35,483 nt of DNA from contig JALSNW010000028.1 of the NCBI GenBank assembly GCA_026986785.1, positions 1 to 35,483 on the forward strand. The letters are read 5' to 3'. The notes under the pieces are model-generated. The model ran no database searches, was not told where the DNA came from, and saw nothing but the letters and a program-made list of their open reading frames with translations. The translations under genes were made by a program, and so were the position numbers. Below are positions 9,524 through 17,347 of the stretch, piece by piece (position 1 is the stretch's first letter; each line of letters opens with the position of its first letter). This DNA is from Deltaproteobacteria bacterium. GTDB taxonomy: Bacteria; Desulfobacterota; Dissulfuribacteria; Dissulfuribacterales; QOAL01.

Positions 9524-10018
9524 ATGGCAACAATCAAAAATCTTGAAATCGATCTTCCCTGCGGTATCTTTTATAACCTTTCAAACCTTATTCTCGATCT
9601 CAATGGCACCCTTACTGTGGACGGTGAGTTCATGGAGGGGGTCTTGCCTAGGCTACGGGAGTTATCGAGATTCTTGAATATATTCATCGTCACTGCCGAT
9701 ACCAATCAGGCAGTTGATAAGATAAGCCAGTCATTGATGGATACGGATATAATAATCCATAAACTCGAAAGTGGCAGAGGTGATATCCAGAAACTCTCTT
9801 TCCTTGAGAGGTTGGGCAGAGAGAAGACAGCAGCAATAGGAAATGGCCGAAATGATGCATTGATGCTCCGAGAGGCTGCCCTTGGAATATGTGTGGTGGG
9901 GCCAGAAGGTGCAGCCGTAGATGCGCTACAGGCCAGCAGGGCCTTGTTCCTTGATATCCGCGATGCACTCGACATCTTTCTAAAGACAAACAGGCTCATT
10001 GCTACCCTCAGGAAATAG
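9524..10018 (+). CDS. HAD-superfamily protein, soluble P-type-ATPase-like
   Basis: This is a 164-residue stand-alone HAD core resembling the soluble P-type ATPase-like family. Motif I is DLNGT (25-29), motif II is in VTADT (56-60) and motif IV is GNGRND (106-111). Ordinary HAD phosphatases have DxDGT and GDGxND, whereas here the second motif-I Asp and the first motif-IV Asp are both Asn. The nucleophile Asp25 is kept. Substrate and physiological role are unknown. It lies between the DUF1232 gene and selD, and its stop codon is 11 bases before the predicted selD start, so co-transcription is likely. The frame has no membrane segments, so it is not a transporter. Confidence 0.8.
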   Translation: MATIKNLEIDLPCGIFYNLSNLILDLNGTLTVDGEFMEGVLPRLRELSRFLNIFIVTADTNQAVDKISQSLMDTDIIIHKLESGRGDIQKLSFLERLGREKTAAIGNGRNDALMLREAALGICVVGPEGAAVDALQASRALFLDIRDALDIFLKTNRLIATLRK

Positions 10019-10029
10019 CAGGCAAATCT

Positions 10030-11091
10030 TTGAGTTACATTGTAAAAAGCCAAAAAGAAAAGACCCGACTTACCAGTCTCGCAACTGCCTCTGGTTGAGC
10101 TGCCAAGATAGGTCCGGAGGATCTGCATCGTATACTCGAATCCCTACCCCTTTCAAAAAGCCCGGATCTGCTCCTTGGCATGGAGACTGCGGCAGATGCA
10201 TGTATAATCAGGATCTCAAAGGATATTGCCATTGTCCAGAGCCTGGACTTTTTTACCCCCATTGTGGATGACCCCTTCGAGTTTGGCCAGATAGCAGCGG
10301 CCAACTCTCTGAGCGACCTCTATGCTATTGGTGCCAGACCGCTTTCTGCCATGAACATAGTCTGTTATCCAATAAAGGACCAACCTGAAGAGACATTGAG
10401 ACAGATATTGAGGGGAGGCATAGAAAAAATCCACGAAGCTGGCGCATTGCTGGCAGGGGGACACAGTGTAGAAGACAAGGAGCCGAAATATGGCCTTTCT
10501 GTTACCGGTCTCGTGCATCCTGAAAAATTTTTTTCCAATAGTGGGGCTCGTCCAGGGGATCTGCTGGTACTGACCAAACCTGTGGGAACAGGCATCTTGT
10601 CAACGGCTCACAAGGCTGGGCTCCTTCCACCAGACATACTTAGTCGTATGATAGATGTAATGAAGAGACTCAACAAGGCGGCCAGCGAGGCCATGAAAAA
10701 GGCAGCAGCCAATGCAGCTACAGATATCACAGGCTTTGGCCTTGCAGGCCATGCACTCGAGATGGCATTGGCCAGTAAGTGCCGTCTGGAACTGAGGGCC
10801 TCCAAGGTACCGATTTTCAAAGAGGCCCTGGAATATCTGAAAATGGGCATGATACCTGAGGGCGACTATTCAAACCAAAACTTCTGTAGGAAGATGGTCA
10901 ACATATCAGGCGATGTCGATCCGGACCTGCTCGTCCTCATGTTCGATGCCCAGACCTCTGGGGGACTTCTCATCTCTGTACCACGGGATAGGATTGAGAA
11001 ACTACAGAGACATCTACAACTACGTGGAGAAGAATCTGCTGTCATCGGCTCGGTGAAGGAAGGGACACCAGGCCTGGACATTCTCGCCTAA
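10030..11091 (+). CDS. selD: selenide, water dikinase SelD (selenoprotein, in-frame TGA)
   Basis: SelD makes selenophosphate from selenide and ATP, the selenium donor for selenocysteine and selenouridine. The first ATG frame starts at 10180, but the same frame upstream reads through a single TGA at 10096-10098 and encodes TRLTSLATASG-U-AAKIGPEDL. This is the conserved SelD N-terminus, with U23 at the position of E. coli Cys17 and Lys26 at that of Lys20. The likely start is TTG 10030, with GCAGG (10018-10022) about 7 bases upstream. The resulting 353 residues match the usual SelD length of about 350. Other signatures are QSLDFFTPIVDDPF, NSLSDLYAIGA and LAGGHSVEDKE. The organism must therefore have SelA, SelB and SelC, which are not in this window. 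SelD enzymes with Sec are known; the start codon is inferred. Confidence 0.93.
10096..10124 (+). promoter_or_regulatory. selenocysteine codon with candidate bacterial SECIS hairpin
   Basis: The TGA at 10096-10098 is followed 11 bases later by AGGTCC (10110-10115), loop GGA and GGATCT (10119-10124). These make a 6-bp stem containing one G-U pair. The apical loop lies about 18-20 bases after the TGA, inside the 16-37 base window known for bacterial SECIS elements, and the GGTC tract echoes the loop region bound by SelB in E. coli. The fold was made by eye. Confidence 0.6.
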
Positions 11092-11618: not shown

Positions 11619-12341
11619 CTATTCCTCTTCAAATCCTTCCATTGTTTTAACCAGGCCGACCAGCAGTTCCGCCTCTTCCTCCAAGATACGACTACCTTTC
11701 AGAGGAGACGATTTGGAGGGATCACCCCATACGCCGCCTGGCCAATAACGAACCTTGTTTCTTACAAGGATGAACTTAGGGAACTGGGGAAATTCCCTTG
11801 GGCTAGAGCCATCTATAAGATCTGGCTTTAGATATTGGATTAGAGACGTTTCCACTTCACCTGCATGTGCATCTCCTTTGGTCTCCACAATGCCCTTCTC
11901 CAATCCTGCAATGAGATCTAGGATCGATAGTACTGCAAACCTGGCATCTTGGAGTTCTTCCATCAAGGTGTCTGCAGAATCGAGTATAGTAGACATGTGG
12001 GTCCCTCCTGCATGACCAGACAGGAGTATAAAATTCCTTAATCCCTGGCCATACATGGACCTACACATATCCATGACCACCATCCTGAGGGATGTTGAGC
12101 TAATCCCTATTGTACCTGGATGCATACTCGTACTGCGGCATAGCCCGTACCACATGGGGGGCATGACGAACACAGGGATCTTGGAAGCCGTTTTCTTGGC
12201 AAGCTCATATGCATGAAATGTGTCGGTTCCGAGGGGAAGGTGCATACCATGCTCCTCCACCGAACCAAAGGGCACTATGACGGTCCTTGTTCTGGAAAGT
12301 CCCCTCTCAAAGGCCTCCATGGTGATATTAGTAACGATCAT
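11619..12341 (-). CDS. creatininase-family amidohydrolase
   Basis: This is a cytoplasmic metal-dependent amidohydrolase of the creatininase family, which includes creatinine amidohydrolases, archaeal FAPy deformylases and MftE. The motif GSVEEHGMHLPLGTD (residues 27-41) supplies the usual metal ligands Glu, His and Asp. The GHAGGTH motif and a Glu near GDAHAGEVETS complete the usual set. The protein is 240 residues. ATG 12341 is chosen although its ribosome binding site is weak; ATG 12320 is an alternative. It is the first gene of a two-gene operon with the TlpA-like gene. The substrate cannot be read from the sequence. FolE2 nearby raises a pterin or deazaflavin link, but that is speculation. 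Confidence 0.88.
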   Translation of the reverse strand: MIVTNITMEAFERGLSRTRTVIVPFGSVEEHGMHLPLGTDTFHAYELAKKTASKIPVFVMPPMWYGLCRSTSMHPGTIGISSTSLRMVVMDMCRSMYGQGLRNFILLSGHAGGTHMSTILDSADTLMEELQDARFAVLSILDLIAGLEKGIVETKGDAHAGEVETSLIQYLKPDLIDGSSPREFPQFPKFILVRNKVRYWPGGVWGDPSKSSPLKGSRILEEEAELLVGLVKTMEGFEEE

Positions 12342-12566: not shown

Positions 12567-12998
12567 ATGAGACTAACAAGAGCAGGCGAATATGCCATCA
12601 GATGCATACTGTATTTGGCCGCAAAAGGAGAAGGTGTACTTACGAGCAAGAAAGAAATAGCTGCCCGATGCGAAATCCCGCCCCAATTTCTTTCTAAGAT
12701 CGCTCAAGAGCTTCAAAAGGCACGAATTATTGAGATAAGACAGGGCCCAAAAGGTGGATTCATCCTTACTCGAAATCCAAAGGACCTGACCCTACTAAAT
12801 GTAATAGAGGCAATTATAGGGGAAATCTATCTGAACGACTGCATAGCCAGGCCTAACCAGTGCACAGCCAGTCCCAAATGCCCGGTGCACAAGGTATGGA
12901 ACAAGGCCAGGGAACAACTAAGGAGCACCTTGGACGCAGTAACTTTCAGTGAGCTTGCCCGGGACCCTAATTGCCTCCCTGATTTCAGTAGAGAATAA
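12567..12998 (+). CDS. Rrf2-family transcriptional regulator, probably Fe-S binding
   Basis: This is a DNA-binding regulator of the Rrf2 family (IscR, NsrR, CymR). The 143-residue protein has the typical N-terminal winged helix (MRLTRAGEYAIRCILYLA, then FLSKIAQELQKA and GPKGGFIL). Cys92, Cys99, Cys105 and His108 correspond closely to Cys92/98/104 and His107 of E. coli IscR, which hold a [2Fe-2S] cluster; one spacing is a residue longer here. It therefore probably senses Fe-S status, oxygen or NO. The start codon has only a weak ribosome binding site. It lies 51 bases before ackA on the same strand and probably controls its own promoter and perhaps the following genes. Whether it is IscR itself is unclear, as no isc/suf genes are present here. 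Confidence 0.9.
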   Translation: MRLTRAGEYAIRCILYLAAKGEGVLTSKKEIAARCEIPPQFLSKIAQELQKARIIEIRQGPKGGFILTRNPKDLTLLNVIEAIIGEIYLNDCIARPNQCTASPKCPVHKVWNKAREQLRSTLDAVTFSELARDPNCLPDFSRE

Positions 12999-13049: not shown

Positions 13050-14249
13050 ATGAAGATACTTGTAATCAATTCTGGAAGTTCGTCCATTAAGTATAAGATA
13101 TTCGACATGAAGGGCATGAAGGTCCTTGCAAATGGCCTGATTGAAAAAATCGGGCGTGATATCAGTAGGTTCAGGCAACGAAGCGGTGAATCAGGGGTTG
13201 ATTTTACAAAGGAATTGCCTATAAAAGACCATACCCGAGGCTTTTCCCTGATGATGGAGGCGCTTTTAGAAACCTCTACCATAGACCATATCTCAGACAT
13301 ATCGGCCATTGGCCACAGGGTGGTCCACGGAGGCAAAAAATTCAAGGCTCCTGTCCTCATAGACAATGAGGTCACGGCGACCATAAGTAGGCTCATCCCC
13401 CTCGCACCTATCCATAACCCTGCAAATCTCACTGGCATAGAGATAACGATGAAGCTCGCCCCCAACATACCCCAGGTGGCCGTGTTCGACACAGCTTTTC
13501 ATCAGACCATGCCTGAAATGGCCTTTCTCTATGCATTACCCAGAAGTCTCTATGAACACTATCATGTCAGGCGTTATGGATTCCATGGCACATCTCACAG
13601 CTATGTGTCACGTCTTGCAGCATCATTTCTGGGGATTGAATCAAGGAGACTGAACTGCATCAGTATGCACCTGGGAAATGGCGCCAGCGCTGCTGCCATA
13701 GAAAAAGGCAGATCCATTGACACATCCATGGGCATGACCCCACTGGAAGGCTTGATAATGGGCACAAGAAGTGGAGACATGGACCCTGCCATTATCTTCT
13801 ATCTGGCCAGAGTTACCAACATGGACATACAGGAGATAGACCATCTACTGAATTTTGACAGCGGGCTTCTTGGGATATGTGGTGAAAACGATATGCGTCT
13901 CATAACCAAAAGGGCTATAGAAGGGGATGCCAATGCCCGTCTTGCCATTGACATGTTCTGTCATCGTCTAAAAAAATACATTGGCGCCTATCTGGCCATC
14001 CTAAGAAGGGTGGATTGCCTGATCTTCACAGGCGGCATAGGGGAGAACTCTCCCTTGATCCGGCAGCAGGTTTGCTCCGGCCTGGAACATCTGGGTATAT
14101 TCATCGATGCAGAAAGAAATAACAAATCCTCTACTGGCATAACTGCGATTCACAAGGAACAGTCCCAGGTAAAGATACTCGTGATCCCAACTGATGAAGA
14201 ACTCGAGATAGCCCAGCAGACCAAAAAGATTCTCCAGGAAAGGCATTGA
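13050..14249 (+). CDS. ackA: acetate kinase
   Basis: This cytoplasmic enzyme interconverts acetyl phosphate + ADP and acetate + ATP. The 399-residue length is standard. Family motifs are complete: NSGSSSIKYKIF near the N-terminus, GHRVVHGG, GFHGTSHSYV, HLGNGASAAA, DTSMGMTPLEGLIMGTRSGD and IFTGGIGENS. It is not next to pta, the usual partner. Instead it follows an Rrf2-type regulator and overlaps the next gene by 4 bases (TTGA), so it is the head of a coupled run with the RibD-C, PP-loop, glycosyltransferase and FolE2 genes. The linkage to those genes may be only transcriptional. Confidence 0.97.
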   Translation: MKILVINSGSSSIKYKIFDMKGMKVLANGLIEKIGRDISRFRQRSGESGVDFTKELPIKDHTRGFSLMMEALLETSTIDHISDISAIGHRVVHGGKKFKAPVLIDNEVTATISRLIPLAPIHNPANLTGIEITMKLAPNIPQVAVFDTAFHQTMPEMAFLYALPRSLYEHYHVRRYGFHGTSHSYVSRLAASFLGIESRRLNCISMHLGNGASAAAIEKGRSIDTSMGMTPLEGLIMGTRSGDMDPAIIFYLARVTNMDIQEIDHLLNFDSGLLGICGENDMRLITKRAIEGDANARLAIDMFCHRLKKYIGAYLAILRRVDCLIFTGGIGENSPLIRQQVCSGLEHLGIFIDAERNNKSSTGITAIHKEQSQVKILVIPTDEELEIAQQTKKILQERH

Positions 14250-14890
14250 AGTCGATACTCATATGCATAGAAACCCTTTGCGGGAGAATATCTCCTGCAG
14301 GTTTCGGGAGCAAGGAAGACAGGCGGCATCTTGAAAGGGCAAGGGAACAAACAGATGCCTCTCTACTCGGAGCAGGCTCCCTAAGGGCGGGTGATCCAGA
14401 ATTTAGGACGTTCGAAGGCAAACTCCCAGTAAACCGCTTGCGTGCCATTGTCACAAGATCTGGCAATATCCCCGCTACTAAATCCATATTCAGAACAGGC
14501 CCCAGGCCCTTGATATTTACCAAATTTTCAATACGAGATATGCTGAACGAACGATTTGGGGAAAGGGCCGAGGTTATAGGCGTACCAGAGACAGATTCAG
14601 GAATGCTCTGCCTGAAAACCATATTGGACAACCTGGAACAGCGTGGGGTCGAGAGCTGTCTCATCGAGGGGGGTGGACTCCTCAATTACGAAGCCTTTAA
14701 ACAAGGAGTGGTGACCGAACTTCTCCTAACCATTGCCCCAAAGATCATTGGAAAGCAGACAGAGACATGTCTCGTATCTGGACCCACGGCCCTGGGTACT
14801 CCCTTCATTCACCTGGAACTTTTATCTTGTAGGATGAATGCCCGGAGTGGTGAACTATTCTTACATTACAAGATCCTGGACAGGAGATAG
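14246..14890 (+). CDS. stand-alone RibD C-terminal-type reductase
   Basis: This 214-residue protein matches the RibD C-terminal domain, a dihydrofolate reductase-like NAD(P)H-dependent fold that reduces riboflavin-pathway pyrimidines. Signatures are the N-terminal segment ending CGRISPAG, DASLLGAGSLRAGDPEF, LRAIVTRSGNIP, and SCLIEGGGLLNYEAF with GVVTELLLTIAPKIIG. No deaminase domain is attached. The start is TTG 14246, overlapping the ackA stop as TTGA, with AGGAAAGG just upstream. Archaeal-type stand-alone members reduce diaminopyrimidine intermediates, and others act on pterins. With FolE2 in the same operon, a pterin or flavin substrate is plausible, but the exact substrate is unknown. Confidence 0.85.
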   Translation: MKSILICIETLCGRISPAGFGSKEDRRHLERAREQTDASLLGAGSLRAGDPEFRTFEGKLPVNRLRAIVTRSGNIPATKSIFRTGPRPLIFTKFSIRDMLNERFGERAEVIGVPETDSGMLCLKTILDNLEQRGVESCLIEGGGLLNYEAFKQGVVTELLLTIAPKIIGKQTETCLVSGPTALGTPFIHLELLSCRMNARSGELFLHYKILDRR

Positions 14891-14892
14891 AT

Positions 14893-15639
14893 ATGGAACG
14901 ACAAGACATGGCCATCTTATTTTCTGGAGGCTCTGACAGCCTGGCCTTGTATAGCCTGGCCATGGCAGGTTCCCTGCCAGGGATCCCAAGGCCAAGAAAC
15001 ATCCATCTCCTCCATATGTTAAACGGCATGGGACGCTTCCCTGATTTCCCCAAGAATCGTTTGAAGGTTGCCAAAACCATACTTGAGGCACAATTGCCAG
15101 CCAAAGAAGACATCCCAGAAACATGCTATATAGAACTCGATATGGGAAGACTCTTTCAAGGGCTTTGGCTTGACAGATACGAAGAGCTCATGCCCCGGTT
15201 CAATGGGAAAAATCTGGTATGTGTTGCCTGTAAATTAGCCATGCACACAAGGGCCATCATATATTGTGTCCAGAATTATGTCCCCTTATTCCTGGCCGGA
15301 TACGCCAAGAAACAGTCCTTTTTCCCAGAACAGACACGGGTTTTCATGGAACTTGTTTCAGGCCTATCTGAAAAATTTGGGATCAGGACGGCATTTCCTC
15401 TCTATGAAGAATTCAATTCGGAGTTGGTCTCAAGGCATCTGCTCGAGGATTTCGGCCTCCCTTCCACTGGAGGAGGCGAGCGAAAATGCCTTTTTTGCCA
15501 AACCCTGACCACTGCCAGGGGAAAAGACATCAAGGCATTTCTGCTCGAGATGATCCCAAAGACAGAACAATACATTGACCATCGGCTTGCCTTTAGGGTC
15601 AAAGAGGCTGCAGAGATATTTCCACCTGGAAGGACGTGA
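14893..15639 (+). CDS. PP-loop ATP-pyrophosphatase-like protein with two CxxC pairs
   Basis: The N-terminal SGGSDS (11-16) is a PP-loop that binds ATP and adenylates a substrate, as in QueC, TtcA, ThiI and MnmA. Two cysteine pairs are visible: Cys110/Cys113 (CVAC) and Cys199/Cys202 (KCLFC). They could bind zinc or an Fe-S cluster, as in TtcA/TtuA-type thiolases. The 248-residue protein does not clearly match any named PP-loop enzyme that I recognise. It starts 2 bases after the RibD-C stop with a strong CAGGAGAT site, and its last four bases overlap the glycosyltransferase start. It may make or activate a modified base, pterin or thiolated product. No function is claimed. Confidence 0.8.
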   Translation: MERQDMAILFSGGSDSLALYSLAMAGSLPGIPRPRNIHLLHMLNGMGRFPDFPKNRLKVAKTILEAQLPAKEDIPETCYIELDMGRLFQGLWLDRYEELMPRFNGKNLVCVACKLAMHTRAIIYCVQNYVPLFLAGYAKKQSFFPEQTRVFMELVSGLSEKFGIRTAFPLYEEFNSELVSRHLLEDFGLPSTGGGERKCLFCQTLTTARGKDIKAFLLEMIPKTEQYIDHRLAFRVKEAAEIFPPGRT

Positions 15640-16445
15640 TCAGTATAAGCTGTATAATCCCGGTCCGGAACAGAAAAGGGCTGGTTCTTTCAGCAATAGA
15701 ATCGGCCATCAGACAGGATGTGCCCGAGTTGGAGATCGTGGTCGTAGATGATGGATCAACAGATGGCACTCCTTCTGAGATACACAGGCATTTTCCTGAA
15801 ATAACTCTTCTTAGGAAAAGGCAAGGATCTGGTCCAGGAGATGCGAGAAATATTGGTGTCATGGCCTCTCAAGGCCGCATACTCATGTTTCTCGACTCTG
15901 ATGATATCTGGCTCGAAAATCATTGTAGTCTCCTCATGGAAAGGCTGGAGAGCGGCTTTCAGGCAGCATTTGGTGTAACTGAGAATGAGGATACAATAAA
16001 AGGCACCAAATTCCTTATACCGGAACATGGGGCAACCAGGCCATGTTGCATGTTCAGCGCTCTTTTGAGATGGTGCTTCATGGTGCCATCCTCCTTTGCC
16101 GTAACCAGAGAGGCCTTTATGACTGTGGGCGGATTCACCCTCTTTAGCCCAGGTGAAGACTGGCTCTTTTTCCTGGAACTCGCCAGGAGGTTCCCTTTTG
16201 GCTTTGTCCAACAGACCATAACATGGAGGCGCCTTCACCCTGACAGTCTTTGTTTAAAGGCTTTTGATAAAAGCAAAGCAACAGCCATAATGCTCAGATT
16301 GAAGGAGGCCACACCAGGCATAGGCTGTAGGGATAATCATATCTTAAGGATGGAAAAAATTCTCGATCTTATAACAAAGGACGGAGACAAATGGCAAAGC
16401 GTTCAGGATTGGTACACGACCCTAAAAAGGCACAATCTCATATGA
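15636..16445 (+). CDS. family 2 glycosyltransferase
   Basis: This is a GT-A-fold inverting glycosyltransferase of 269 residues. It shows the family 2 opening ISCIIPVRNRKGLVLSAIES, the nucleotide-sugar site VVVDDGSTDGT (35-45), SGPGDARNIG, and the DxD-type metal site FLDSDD (85-90). A later acidic segment, FSPGEDWLFFLELARRF, resembles the catalytic base region. No membrane segment is evident. It starts at GTG 15636, overlapping the previous stop as GTGA, and its own stop overlaps the FolE2 ATG. Its acceptor is unknown. Its presence inside a tightly coupled nucleotide/pterin-type gene group is unusual. Confidence 0.92.
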   Translation: MISISCIIPVRNRKGLVLSAIESAIRQDVPELEIVVVDDGSTDGTPSEIHRHFPEITLLRKRQGSGPGDARNIGVMASQGRILMFLDSDDIWLENHCSLLMERLESGFQAAFGVTENEDTIKGTKFLIPEHGATRPCCMFSALLRWCFMVPSSFAVTREAFMTVGGFTLFSPGEDWLFFLELARRFPFGFVQQTITWRRLHPDSLCLKAFDKSKATAIMLRLKEATPGIGCRDNHILRMEKILDLITKDGDKWQSVQDWYTTLKRHNLI

Positions 16446-17347
16446 GGCCTGAAATCCCAGCGGCCAGACACGAACAGATACTCGCTTCCTGCGAGGATGT
16501 CCCTGAAATGGAACCCGTGTTTAGATTGGCCTTGACAAAGGTTGGTATATCGTCAAAGACGATCTGGATACGTCTCCCCCAAGGCACTCTGCCTTTCGAA
16601 GCAGAGATCATGGTCGATCTGCCAGCAGGATTCAGAGGCATCCACATGTCCAGGATAGAAAGGGCTATTTCTACCCTCACAGATGAACGATTCGACGACA
16701 TAAGATCCTACTCGGAAAAACTTTGCAGACTCGTCCTATTGGGGCAACGAGGCACTGTTGCAGAGATATTCCTCGGGGGGAAACTGCCCCAGTTCACCAG
16801 AACAAGCCTGAGCAATGAACTGTCCACAGATAACCTCGACATATCAGTATTGACCAAGGGGAAACAGGCCGGGGAACAGGTTGAAGTCGTGTCCCATCTC
16901 GGGCTCTGCATTACACATATAACCGCATGTCCATGCACCCAGGCCTACAACAGGGCCCTGTTTCCAGAGGCCCAGATCCCTTGCATGCCAACACATTCCC
17001 AGCGTTGCATGACCAGGTTGCAGGTGGAAGACAAGATAGGAAACCTCACCTACCACCATCTGTACCATTGCCTTGAGAGTTGCCTCCACTTGAGCCAAGA
17101 CCTGCTTAAAAGACCAGATGAGGCGGAACTCGTCCTCAAGTGTCACAATGAGCCCCAATTTGTCGAGGATGTGATCCGACTGGTGGCCTTTCAGGCTGGA
17201 AAGCGGCTTTCAGACCTCTTACCAAGTGATTCCCGAATAACCATTGAGTCCACAAGCCTGGAAAGCATACATCTACATAATGTGAAATCCAGGCTGCGGT
17301 GTCAACTCCACGAGATAAGGGGCATGGAAGCACCAGATGATTATTGA
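16442..17347 (+). CDS. folE2: GTP cyclohydrolase FolE2 (type IB)
   Basis: FolE2 converts GTP to 7,8-dihydroneopterin triphosphate, the entry point to folate, queuosine and other pterins. The type IB enzyme can use various metals, commonly replacing zinc-dependent FolE. The frame is open from 16391, but ATG 16442 overlaps the preceding stop as ATGA and gives the usual length of 301 residues. Motifs are FRGIHMSR (64-71), the catalytic-cysteine segment TACPCTQ (161-167, Cys163), and PTHSQR (183-188). It ends the coupled gene group, and its stop codon directly abuts the pepA stop on the other strand. QueH, a late queuosine enzyme, is encoded about 14 kb away. Confidence 0.95.
   Translation: MRPEIPAARHEQILASCEDVPEMEPVFRLALTKVGISSKTIWIRLPQGTLPFEAEIMVDLPAGFRGIHMSRIERAISTLTDERFDDIRSYSEKLCRLVLLGQRGTVAEIFLGGKLPQFTRTSLSNELSTDNLDISVLTKGKQAGEQVEVVSHLGLCITHITACPCTQAYNRALFPEAQIPCMPTHSQRCMTRLQVEDKIGNLTYHHLYHCLESCLHLSQDLLKRPDEAELVLKCHNEPQFVEDVIRLVAFQAGKRLSDLLPSDSRITIESTSLESIHLHNVKSRLRCQLHEIRGMEAPDDY

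Follow-up and report, generated by a model that had tools for sequence, protein, structure and literature searches.

The enzymes YcfA and YcfB are reported to be necessary and sufficient for 6-thioguanine formation, and the tgs operon includes a predicted cysteine desulfurase (PMC7994395; like all papers cited here by PMC number, it is cited from an excerpt). In NcsA, a [4Fe-4S] cluster is held by C142, C145, and C233, and inorganic sulfide serves as the sulfur source (PMC10067955). LarE of Thermotoga maritima carries a CXXC-C motif and next to it a fourth cysteine, which is not constant across LarE proteins; transfer of cluster-bound sulfide has been proposed for this enzyme (PMC9283937). Here, we describe a gene run at positions 13050-17347 of the window, i.e., the whole stretch of 35,483 nucleotides that was analyzed (contig JALSNW010000028.1, assembly GCA_026986785.1, from a Deltaproteobacteria bacterium of the order Dissulfuribacterales). 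A RibD_C-type reductase, a PP-loop ATP pyrophosphatase, a family 2 glycosyltransferase (GT2), and a second, FolE2-like GTP cyclohydrolase form a conserved module in this run, and the acetate kinase gene ackA lies outside it. We give about an even chance to the reading that the four enzymes constitute a dedicated GTP-derived pathway to a reduced, thiolated, and usually glycosylated pterin.

The positions of the open reading frames (ORFs) confirmed five genes in a run, all on the forward strand. The first, ackA (13050..14249; TIGR00016, 494 bits, above cut-off), overlaps by 4 bases the RibD_C gene (14246..14890; PF01872, 82.2 bits, cut-off 24.1), which encodes a second copy of 214 amino acids without a deaminase domain. 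We set its start at the TTG at 14246 because homologues begin at the same place in the alignment. Two bases further on follows the PP-loop gene (14893..15639), and this overlaps by 4 bases the gene for the 269-amino-acid GT2 (15636..16445; GTG start; PF00535, 98.8 bits, above cut-off). The FolE2-like ORF was listed from 16391, but homologues begin near the ATG at 16442 and we therefore read the gene from there (16442..17347; 301 amino acids; PF02649, 141 bits, above cut-off), which gives a 4-base overlap with GT2. Read in this way, the five genes overlap by 4 bases or lie 2 bases apart, just as an earlier note on this DNA had claimed. Tight spacing by itself is ordinary for an operon, and it is the conservation that exceeds chance. 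A promoter and terminator scan returned no more signals than were obtained with shuffled sequences.

For the PP-loop protein, neither Pfam nor NCBIfam gave a match, the former not even at E 10. The family names in the earlier note agree with models scoring above cut-off for ackA, RibD_C, GT2, and FolE2, while the fold placement of the PP-loop protein is based on its SGGSDS motif (residues 11-16; codons 14923..14940) and a structure model. S11, G12, G13, and S16 are present in 69 of 69 distinct copies with a letter at the respective position and D15 in 67 of 69. The AlphaFold model, built with 24 sequences, has a mean pLDDT of 87.4. Foldseek matched it to YcfA of Erwinia amylovora (E 5.4e-12, TM 0.80 by query), and VIA aligned 220 of its 248 residues with YcfA at a Z score of 27.9 and a root-mean-square deviation of 1.8. 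YcfA was also matched by phmmer (E 5e-7) and is the sole PDB sequence match of the PP-loop profile (hmmsearch E 1.7e-11), and according to the PDB titles it was solved with ATP and with GTP. A further relative, from Staphylococcus chromogenes, is 27% identical over 191 residues (blastp) and close to YcfA (E 4.8e-53). Its operon comprises genes for a class-V pyridoxal phosphate enzyme, the PP-loop relative, a NUDIX protein, a DMT transporter, another NUDIX protein, and a HAD protein (L128). As this make-up is the one printed for tgsA-F (PMC7994395), we take the protein to be TgsB. It was the best match (E 1e-10) among the 5 of 72,556 plasmid records retrieved with the PP-loop protein, plasmid records being what was searched beyond the phylum Desulfobacterota. 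Positions common to the window protein, YcfA, and TgsB include D15, E97, N107, L108, K114, H118, C125, G136, Q141, E146, Q147, and E196. Instead of being a generic adenylating enzyme, the PP-loop protein is related to the 6-thioguanine enzymes. The idea in the earlier note that it adenylates a substrate is thereby refined: sulfur insertion at a probable [4Fe-4S] site, which the note had not considered, is the likely key step.

After YcfA, the next family found by VIA was ThiI (Z 15.7); the folds matched also include QueC (13.9), TrmU (13.5), LarE (13.4), the nitrile synthetase ArtA (13.3), and NAD synthetase (11.7). QueC, ArtA, and NAD synthetase activate a carbonyl for nitrogen, and QueC acts on a GTP-derived ring; the PP-loop enzyme could by analogy lead to an amino- or cyano-modified pterin or deazapurine. 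We consider this quite unlikely, since the YcfA match stands at 27.9, the sulfur inserters ThiI, TrmU, and LarE match as well as or better than the nitrogen enzymes, and the protein carries the CxxC-C triad of Fe-S sulfur insertases. Moreover, 59 of 60 genomes have a QueC match of their own.

The triad is invariant in the family, with C110 and C113 (codons 15220..15231) in 70 of 70 distinct copies each and C199 in 69 of 69. A fourth cysteine close to it, C202, is found in 62 of 69 (codons for C199 to C202, 15487..15498; counts refer to copies with a letter at the position). The spacing is C110-x2-C113-x85-C199. Because the triads of NcsA and LarE resemble these three residues, a cluster held by three cysteines with an open iron would be the natural reading, and the protein is a proposed [4Fe-4S] sulfur insertase. 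Free sulfide may then be the natural sulfur donor in sulfidogenic bacteria, as opposed to the desulfurase of the tgs operon. TtuA, NcsA, and ThiI share this fold, and a gene for a CCA-adding enzyme follows the FolE2-like gene in many loci of the order of Desulfurivibrio alkaliphilus, which would fit a PP-loop enzyme that thiolates tRNA next to merely co-transcribed neighbors. To this we assign very little probability: the 220 residues that align with YcfA leave little room for an RNA-binding domain, and the presence of the PP-loop gene is tied to that of the FolE2-like gene.

Protein searches detected the PP-loop gene in 33 of 60 relatives, representing 14 of 36 genera, and in 12 named contigs of GTDB species. 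Among 395 genomes spread over the phylum, the profile found it in 20, all of which belong either to the order of the window or to that of Desulfurivibrio alkaliphilus AHT2 (G234), hereafter the second order. In the latter, 65 of 257 genomes carry the gene (profile search). Besides D. alkaliphilus, the carriers include Dissulfurimicrobium hydrothermale (2,025,450 bp), a member of the window's order and an obligate sulfur disproportionator. We draw no link to sulfur disproportionation as such, given that the gene is missing in 27 of the 60 relatives, 13 of these in the window's own order.

We inspected 90 PP-loop loci, counted as loci and not as genomes, so that some genomes appear twice, and many of the loci are short. 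The order RibD_C - PP-loop - GT2 - FolE2 is complete in 41 of them; in 42 more, RibD_C precedes the PP-loop gene but not all four genes are visible, and in the other 7, no RibD_C was seen. RibD_C, GT2, and FolE2-like keep their order around the PP-loop gene while the other neighbors vary. The gene ackA, for instance, lies upstream in just 12 of the 90 loci, and the three loci from the same genus (L002, L003, and L004) all lack it. We therefore rejected it as a part of the module, although it is probably co-transcribed with the module in this genome. We likewise rejected the upstream gene for an Rrf2-family regulator (12567..12998, forward strand; PF02082, 117.9 bits), a possible local regulator that otherwise stands beside the module only in two loci of its own genus (L002/L022 and L003/L021). 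Of the coupled five-gene group claimed in the earlier note, RibD_C, PP-loop, GT2, and FolE2 thus remain, and their conservation reaches far beyond one strain.

In the 60-genome set, we counted as FolE2-like those PF02649 matches of about 141-166 bits, setting aside a short piece in G035 and partial matches in G019 and G059. Of the 33 relatives that carry the PP-loop gene, 32 have such a FolE2-like gene, compared with 2 of the 27 that lack the PP-loop gene (Fisher p 2e-13); these two genomes (G020 and G043) are both less than 90% complete. In the second order, where the threshold was E 1e-65, the respective numbers are 57 of 65 and 1 of 192 (Fisher p 4e-47; 257 genomes). GT2 occurs in 46 of the 257 genomes, i.e., in 44 of the 65 with and in 2 of the 192 without the PP-loop gene, which leaves FolE2-like as the more faithful PP-loop partner of the two tested by genome search. 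The short RibD_C copy accompanies the PP-loop gene in 32 of 33 relatives, all except G037, whose PP-loop gene begins at contig position 117. The Fisher p values treat genomes as independent and ignore shared ancestry. This concern is countered by the complete genome of D. alkaliphilus (3,097,763 bp), which keeps all module genes though at three distant places: GT2 at 364 kb, RibD_C and PP-loop at 884 kb, and FolE2-like at 1,550 kb. The PP-loop and FolE2-like genes also lie on different contigs in 15 of the 57 second-order genomes that have both, draft assemblies in which distance is not proven. PP-loop, FolE2-like, and GT2 are present or absent together over two orders, also when unlinked. The explanation that unrelated genes are co-transcribed by chance, which the earlier note had offered as its alternative and which clearly applies to ackA and the Rrf2 gene upstream, is refuted for the core to the extent that comparing genomes allows, and we rate its probability as minimal.

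Damaged or isolated copies were found as well. In one relative (G019), a stop interrupts RibD_C, and only a remnant of the PP-loop gene is left. Three second-order genomes of the family f105 lack the FolE2-like gene, and their PP-loop copies depart at D15 or at the cysteine positions. These lone copies (L031/L114, L115, and L116, in G515, G516, and G526) have no RibD_C, GT2, or FolE2-like gene adjoining, which suggests that they may be decaying or repurposed. Together, the patterns in G019 and f105 would fit a module that works as a unit. Two other arrangements were noted. In the single-contig genome G487, the PP-loop gene is frameshifted (L117:8023-8778) and RibD_C, GT2, and FolE2-like look intact, so that either the gene was lost recently or the sequence contains an error. 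Two RibD_C-type genes stand side by side in a genome that has no PP-loop gene (G031:C189:201-1505).

Both pterin-type enzymes of the module are second copies. The window's own genome encodes a canonical FolE2 elsewhere (332.7 bits, contig C10), distinct from the FolE2-like protein (141.4 bits). The two share 26% identity, and the FolE2-like protein retains CPC, HxQR, KRPDE, and ESIHxH, which we take to be the metal-binding and catalytic motifs of FolE2. It scores below the NCBIfam equivalog cut-offs for both FolE2 (102.1 of 215 bits) and MptA (131.3 of 220 bits). Likewise, a bifunctional RibD of 379 amino acids (159 bits, C19) exists besides the 214-amino-acid RibD_C protein (81.7 bits), with 25% identity over 150 residues. 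Canonical RibD was found in 30 of the 33 PP-loop relatives; G009, G016, and G042 have none, and G037 has only a fragment. The RibD_C protein stays below the NCBIfam cut-offs for riboflavin enzymes (TIGR01508, 82.2 of 186.45 bits; TIGR00227, 78.1 of 150.15; TIGR00326, 50.9 of 156.35). The SLDG motif of the genome's own RibD reads TLCG or similar in the RibD_C copies, where the cysteine in place of aspartate is invariant in 29 aligned sequences. Contrary to what the earlier note named as a possible objection, RibD_C is thus not the ordinary riboflavin reductase of this organism.

Among the 60 relatives, 34 carry the FolE2-like gene and 28 of these 34 also carry canonical FolE2, which is retained in relatives without the module, too. 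Classical FolE (PF01227) exceeded the cut-off in 1 of 60. Since 6 of the 34 appear to have no canonical FolE2, FolE2-like and RibD_C might provide an alternative folate route through dihydroneopterin triphosphate and dihydropterin reduction, with PP-loop and GT2 as accessories. The RibD-type protein Rv2671, which can reportedly replace dihydrofolate reductase, would suit such a route. However, folate has its own FolE2 in most of these genomes, and the route leaves both the sulfur-insertase relative and its tightly coupled occurrence unexplained, so that we regard it as improbable. The module is probably not folate synthesis.

Nor does it correspond to the standard synthesis of riboflavin, queuosine, or methanopterin, as these needs are served elsewhere or not at all. 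Canonical RibD is present, and QueC is a separate gene with matches in 59 of 60 genomes, from which the window PP-loop protein differs (PF06508). RFAP synthase (TIGR00144), a methanopterin marker, was found in 0 of 60 genomes by a search that scores in four archaeal controls. This agrees with the earlier note, which did not recognize the combination as riboflavin, folate, or queuosine synthesis; its suggestion of a glycosylated pterin or a modified deazapurine survives in its first part, a modified and probably glycosylated GTP-derived or pterin product still being the best idea, while a deazapurine is less likely given the separate QueC. For the FolE2-like protein, the archaeal MptA model does give the highest score (131 bits compared with 102 for FolE2), and DUF166, a family also present in two methanogens of the control set, follows the FolE2-like gene in some loci. 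A methanopterin-like one-carbon coenzyme pathway, in which RibD_C would open the ribofuranosyl ring and GT2 would add a sugar, is nevertheless strongly disfavored by the missing RFAP synthase and the presence of DUF166 in 11 of 13 same-order genomes that lack the PP-loop gene, and seems scarcely probable.

The remaining member, GT2, is absent from 13 of the 14 f71 genomes that carry the PP-loop gene. It would therefore be a tailoring step at most, and probably is a tailoring enzyme. Its structure model (pLDDT 93.6) matched the polysaccharide enzymes WrtF (VIA Z 26.2) and chondroitin polymerase (25.8) and the nucleoside 3'-O-glucosyltransferase AvpGT (25.6) at the same level. Owing to this tie, we rejected reading the acceptor from the fold. 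The AvpGT match would suit a module whose product is not a pterin but, similar to 6-thioguanine, a guanine nucleotide or nucleoside glycoside bearing sulfur, with the FolE2-like protein as a thiopurine hydrolase or scaffold, and the only characterized close relatives of the PP-loop enzyme serve 6-thioguanine synthesis. Yet AvpGT is tied with WrtF and chondroitin polymerase, the module has no counterparts of the NUDIX, HAD, and transporter genes found in the tgs operon, and the most faithful tested partner of the PP-loop gene is a FolE2-like gene with its FolE2 motifs retained. We consider a thioguanine-type product unlikely.

For the pterin pathway, to which we now return, we start from a conserved module whose genes co-occur even when unlinked, from two second copies of pterin-type enzymes, and from a 6-thioguanine-enzyme relative with a cysteine triad. 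From these observations, we infer the sulfur transfer, the Fe-S cluster, the substrate, the order of steps, the product, and its role. The PP-loop enzyme would adenylate a ring carbonyl of GTP, or of a pterin derived from it, and exchange its oxygen for a sulfur bound to the open iron of a [4Fe-4S] cluster that has C110, C113, and C199 as ligands. By opening and re-closing the ring of (thio)GTP, the FolE2-like enzyme would yield (thio)dihydroneopterin, RibD_C would reduce the ring or the side chain with NAD(P)H, and GT2 would add a sugar in most lineages. GTP is the likeliest meeting point because YcfA was solved with GTP and FolE2 acts on GTP. The result would be a pterin that is reduced, thiolated, and in most cases glycosylated, and its likeliest role would be that of an intracellular cofactor. 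Use inside the cell rather than export is weakly favored since the module contains no transporter, NUDIX, or phosphatase genes.

Several observations weigh against this pathway. At E 1e-65, 8 of the 65 second-order PP-loop genomes show no FolE2-like gene, and five of the eight (G433, G515, G516, G526, and G646) are at least 90% complete. GT2 is absent in 21 of the 65, 13 of them f71. In the six relatives in which FolE2-like but no canonical FolE2 was found (G003, G010, G028, G033, G041, and G044), three of which are at least 92% complete, the FolE2-like enzyme might also serve folate. RibD_C no longer carries one residue of the riboflavin-reductase motif. YcfA and TgsB do not have the cysteine triad, so that the sulfur route would differ from theirs; the Fe-S site is a prediction read from the sequence, and a common activity with the 6-thioguanine enzymes would have to extend across about 21-27% identity. 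A cofactor role is suggested only by the fact that the module encodes no transporter.

It is possible, and we propose it tentatively, that the product is a coenzyme of a new kind in sulfur-metabolizing Desulfobacterota. In this view, a [4Fe-4S] enzyme related to the 6-thioguanine enzymes would act together with a private FolE2 and a private RibD_C to convert GTP into a reduced pterin in which sulfur replaces the ring oxygen and to which a sugar is attached in most cases, and this compound would serve in the redox chemistry of sulfur or of one-carbon units. Pathways of sulfur disproportionation are described as "only partially deciphered" (PMC8780430). In the open-licence PMC literature, we found no paper joining FolE2, PP-loop, and RibD and none on thiopterin with biosynthesis. 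The enzyme families are known, and our searches suggest that their combination and the cysteine-triad form of the 6-thioguanine-enzyme fold have not been described. If the pathway is correct, the family is wider than the 6-thioguanine enzymes, which make up one of its branches, and an iron-sulfur form built into pterin synthesis makes up the other; a sulfur-containing pterin would be added to biology, and with it a candidate cofactor for sulfur-disproportionating bacteria. The proposal is directly testable, as D. alkaliphilus and D. hydrothermale, which have the genes, are both in culture.

Several neighboring genes were considered and left out. We rejected DUF166 (PF02593) as a pathway gene, as it occurs in 42 of 60 genomes, among them the 11 same-order genomes mentioned above that lack the PP-loop gene; six genomes from the window's order have it directly after FolE2-like (L034, L038, L043, L046, L047, and L048). 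Ysc84 and HD-domain neighbors were taken as local synteny, as were the neighboring genes for glycogen phosphorylase and a CCA-adding enzyme. Of the loci in the second order, L108, L109, L111-L113, L118-L120, L123, L124, and L126 have a CCA-adding/poly(A) polymerase-type gene after FolE2-like, even where FolE2-like is far from the PP-loop gene; the polymerase family call was made for L108 and L124. A large gene often stands beside it, which in L108 and L123 encodes glycogen phosphorylase. Sixteen second-order loci (L067:6860-7894 and 15 related ones) contain a gene of about 340 codons divergent before RibD_C, which has no Pfam match at E 1e-5 and resembles ParB-type proteins by eye. A defense system was dismissed after PADLOC gave no match for any of the four module proteins.

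Further upstream in the window, a gene on the forward strand (10018-11091) reads through an in-frame TGA within the motif ASG-U-AAKIGP and probably encodes a selenocysteine-containing SelD (selenide, water dikinase), a name given by eye and not by a family call. The ORF listed at 10180 is only the 3' part of this gene. On the reverse strand, a creatininase-family amidohydrolase gene (11619-12341) lies divergent from the Rrf2 gene. Its best NCBIfam match, MftE, is below cut-off (105 of 172 bits), and the pair is also found in one other genome of the genus (L002/L022).

Compared with described systems, a glycosylated pterin in an anaerobic sulfur bacterium has a precedent in the pteridine glycosyltransferase of Chlorobium tepidum (PMC5683033). 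We liken the module to this enzyme by description only. To our knowledge, the reaction of the C. tepidum enzyme involves no sulfur insertion. The RibD_C protein shares PF01872 and the EGG motif with known reductases, and its best solved relatives are an archaeal RibD reductase (2azn) and Rv2671 (4xrb), a RibD-type protein that can reportedly act as or replace dihydrofolate reductase. It differs from these reductases in the missing deaminase domain, the change from aspartate to cysteine in SLDG, and the presence of a canonical RibD elsewhere. With FolE2 and MptA, the FolE2-like protein has PF02649 and all four motifs in common, but it is divergent, has additional residues inserted between CPC and HxQR, and is extended at its C-terminus. 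TtuA, NcsA, and LarE combine, like the window protein, an SGGxDS PP-loop with a CxxC-C triad. The distance from the second to the third cysteine is 88 residues in NcsA (C145-C233; PMC10067955) and 86 here (C113-C199), and a variable fourth cysteine near the triad, as C202 in the window family, also characterizes LarE of T. maritima. In contrast, the fold similarity to NcsA and LarE reaches only Z 11 to 13, and the substrate of the window protein is apparently neither tRNA nor a nickel-pincer precursor. The tgs operon has NUDIX, HAD, and transporter genes, whereas the window module has FolE2-like, RibD_C, and GT2 instead. The 6-thioguanine enzymes themselves are only about 21-27% identical to the PP-loop protein and do not have C110, C113, C199, or C202, but they share with it the fold, the PP-loop with its catalytic aspartate, the positions around K114, H118, C125, G136, Q141, and E146-Q147, and, by analogy, a likely guanine-derived substrate.

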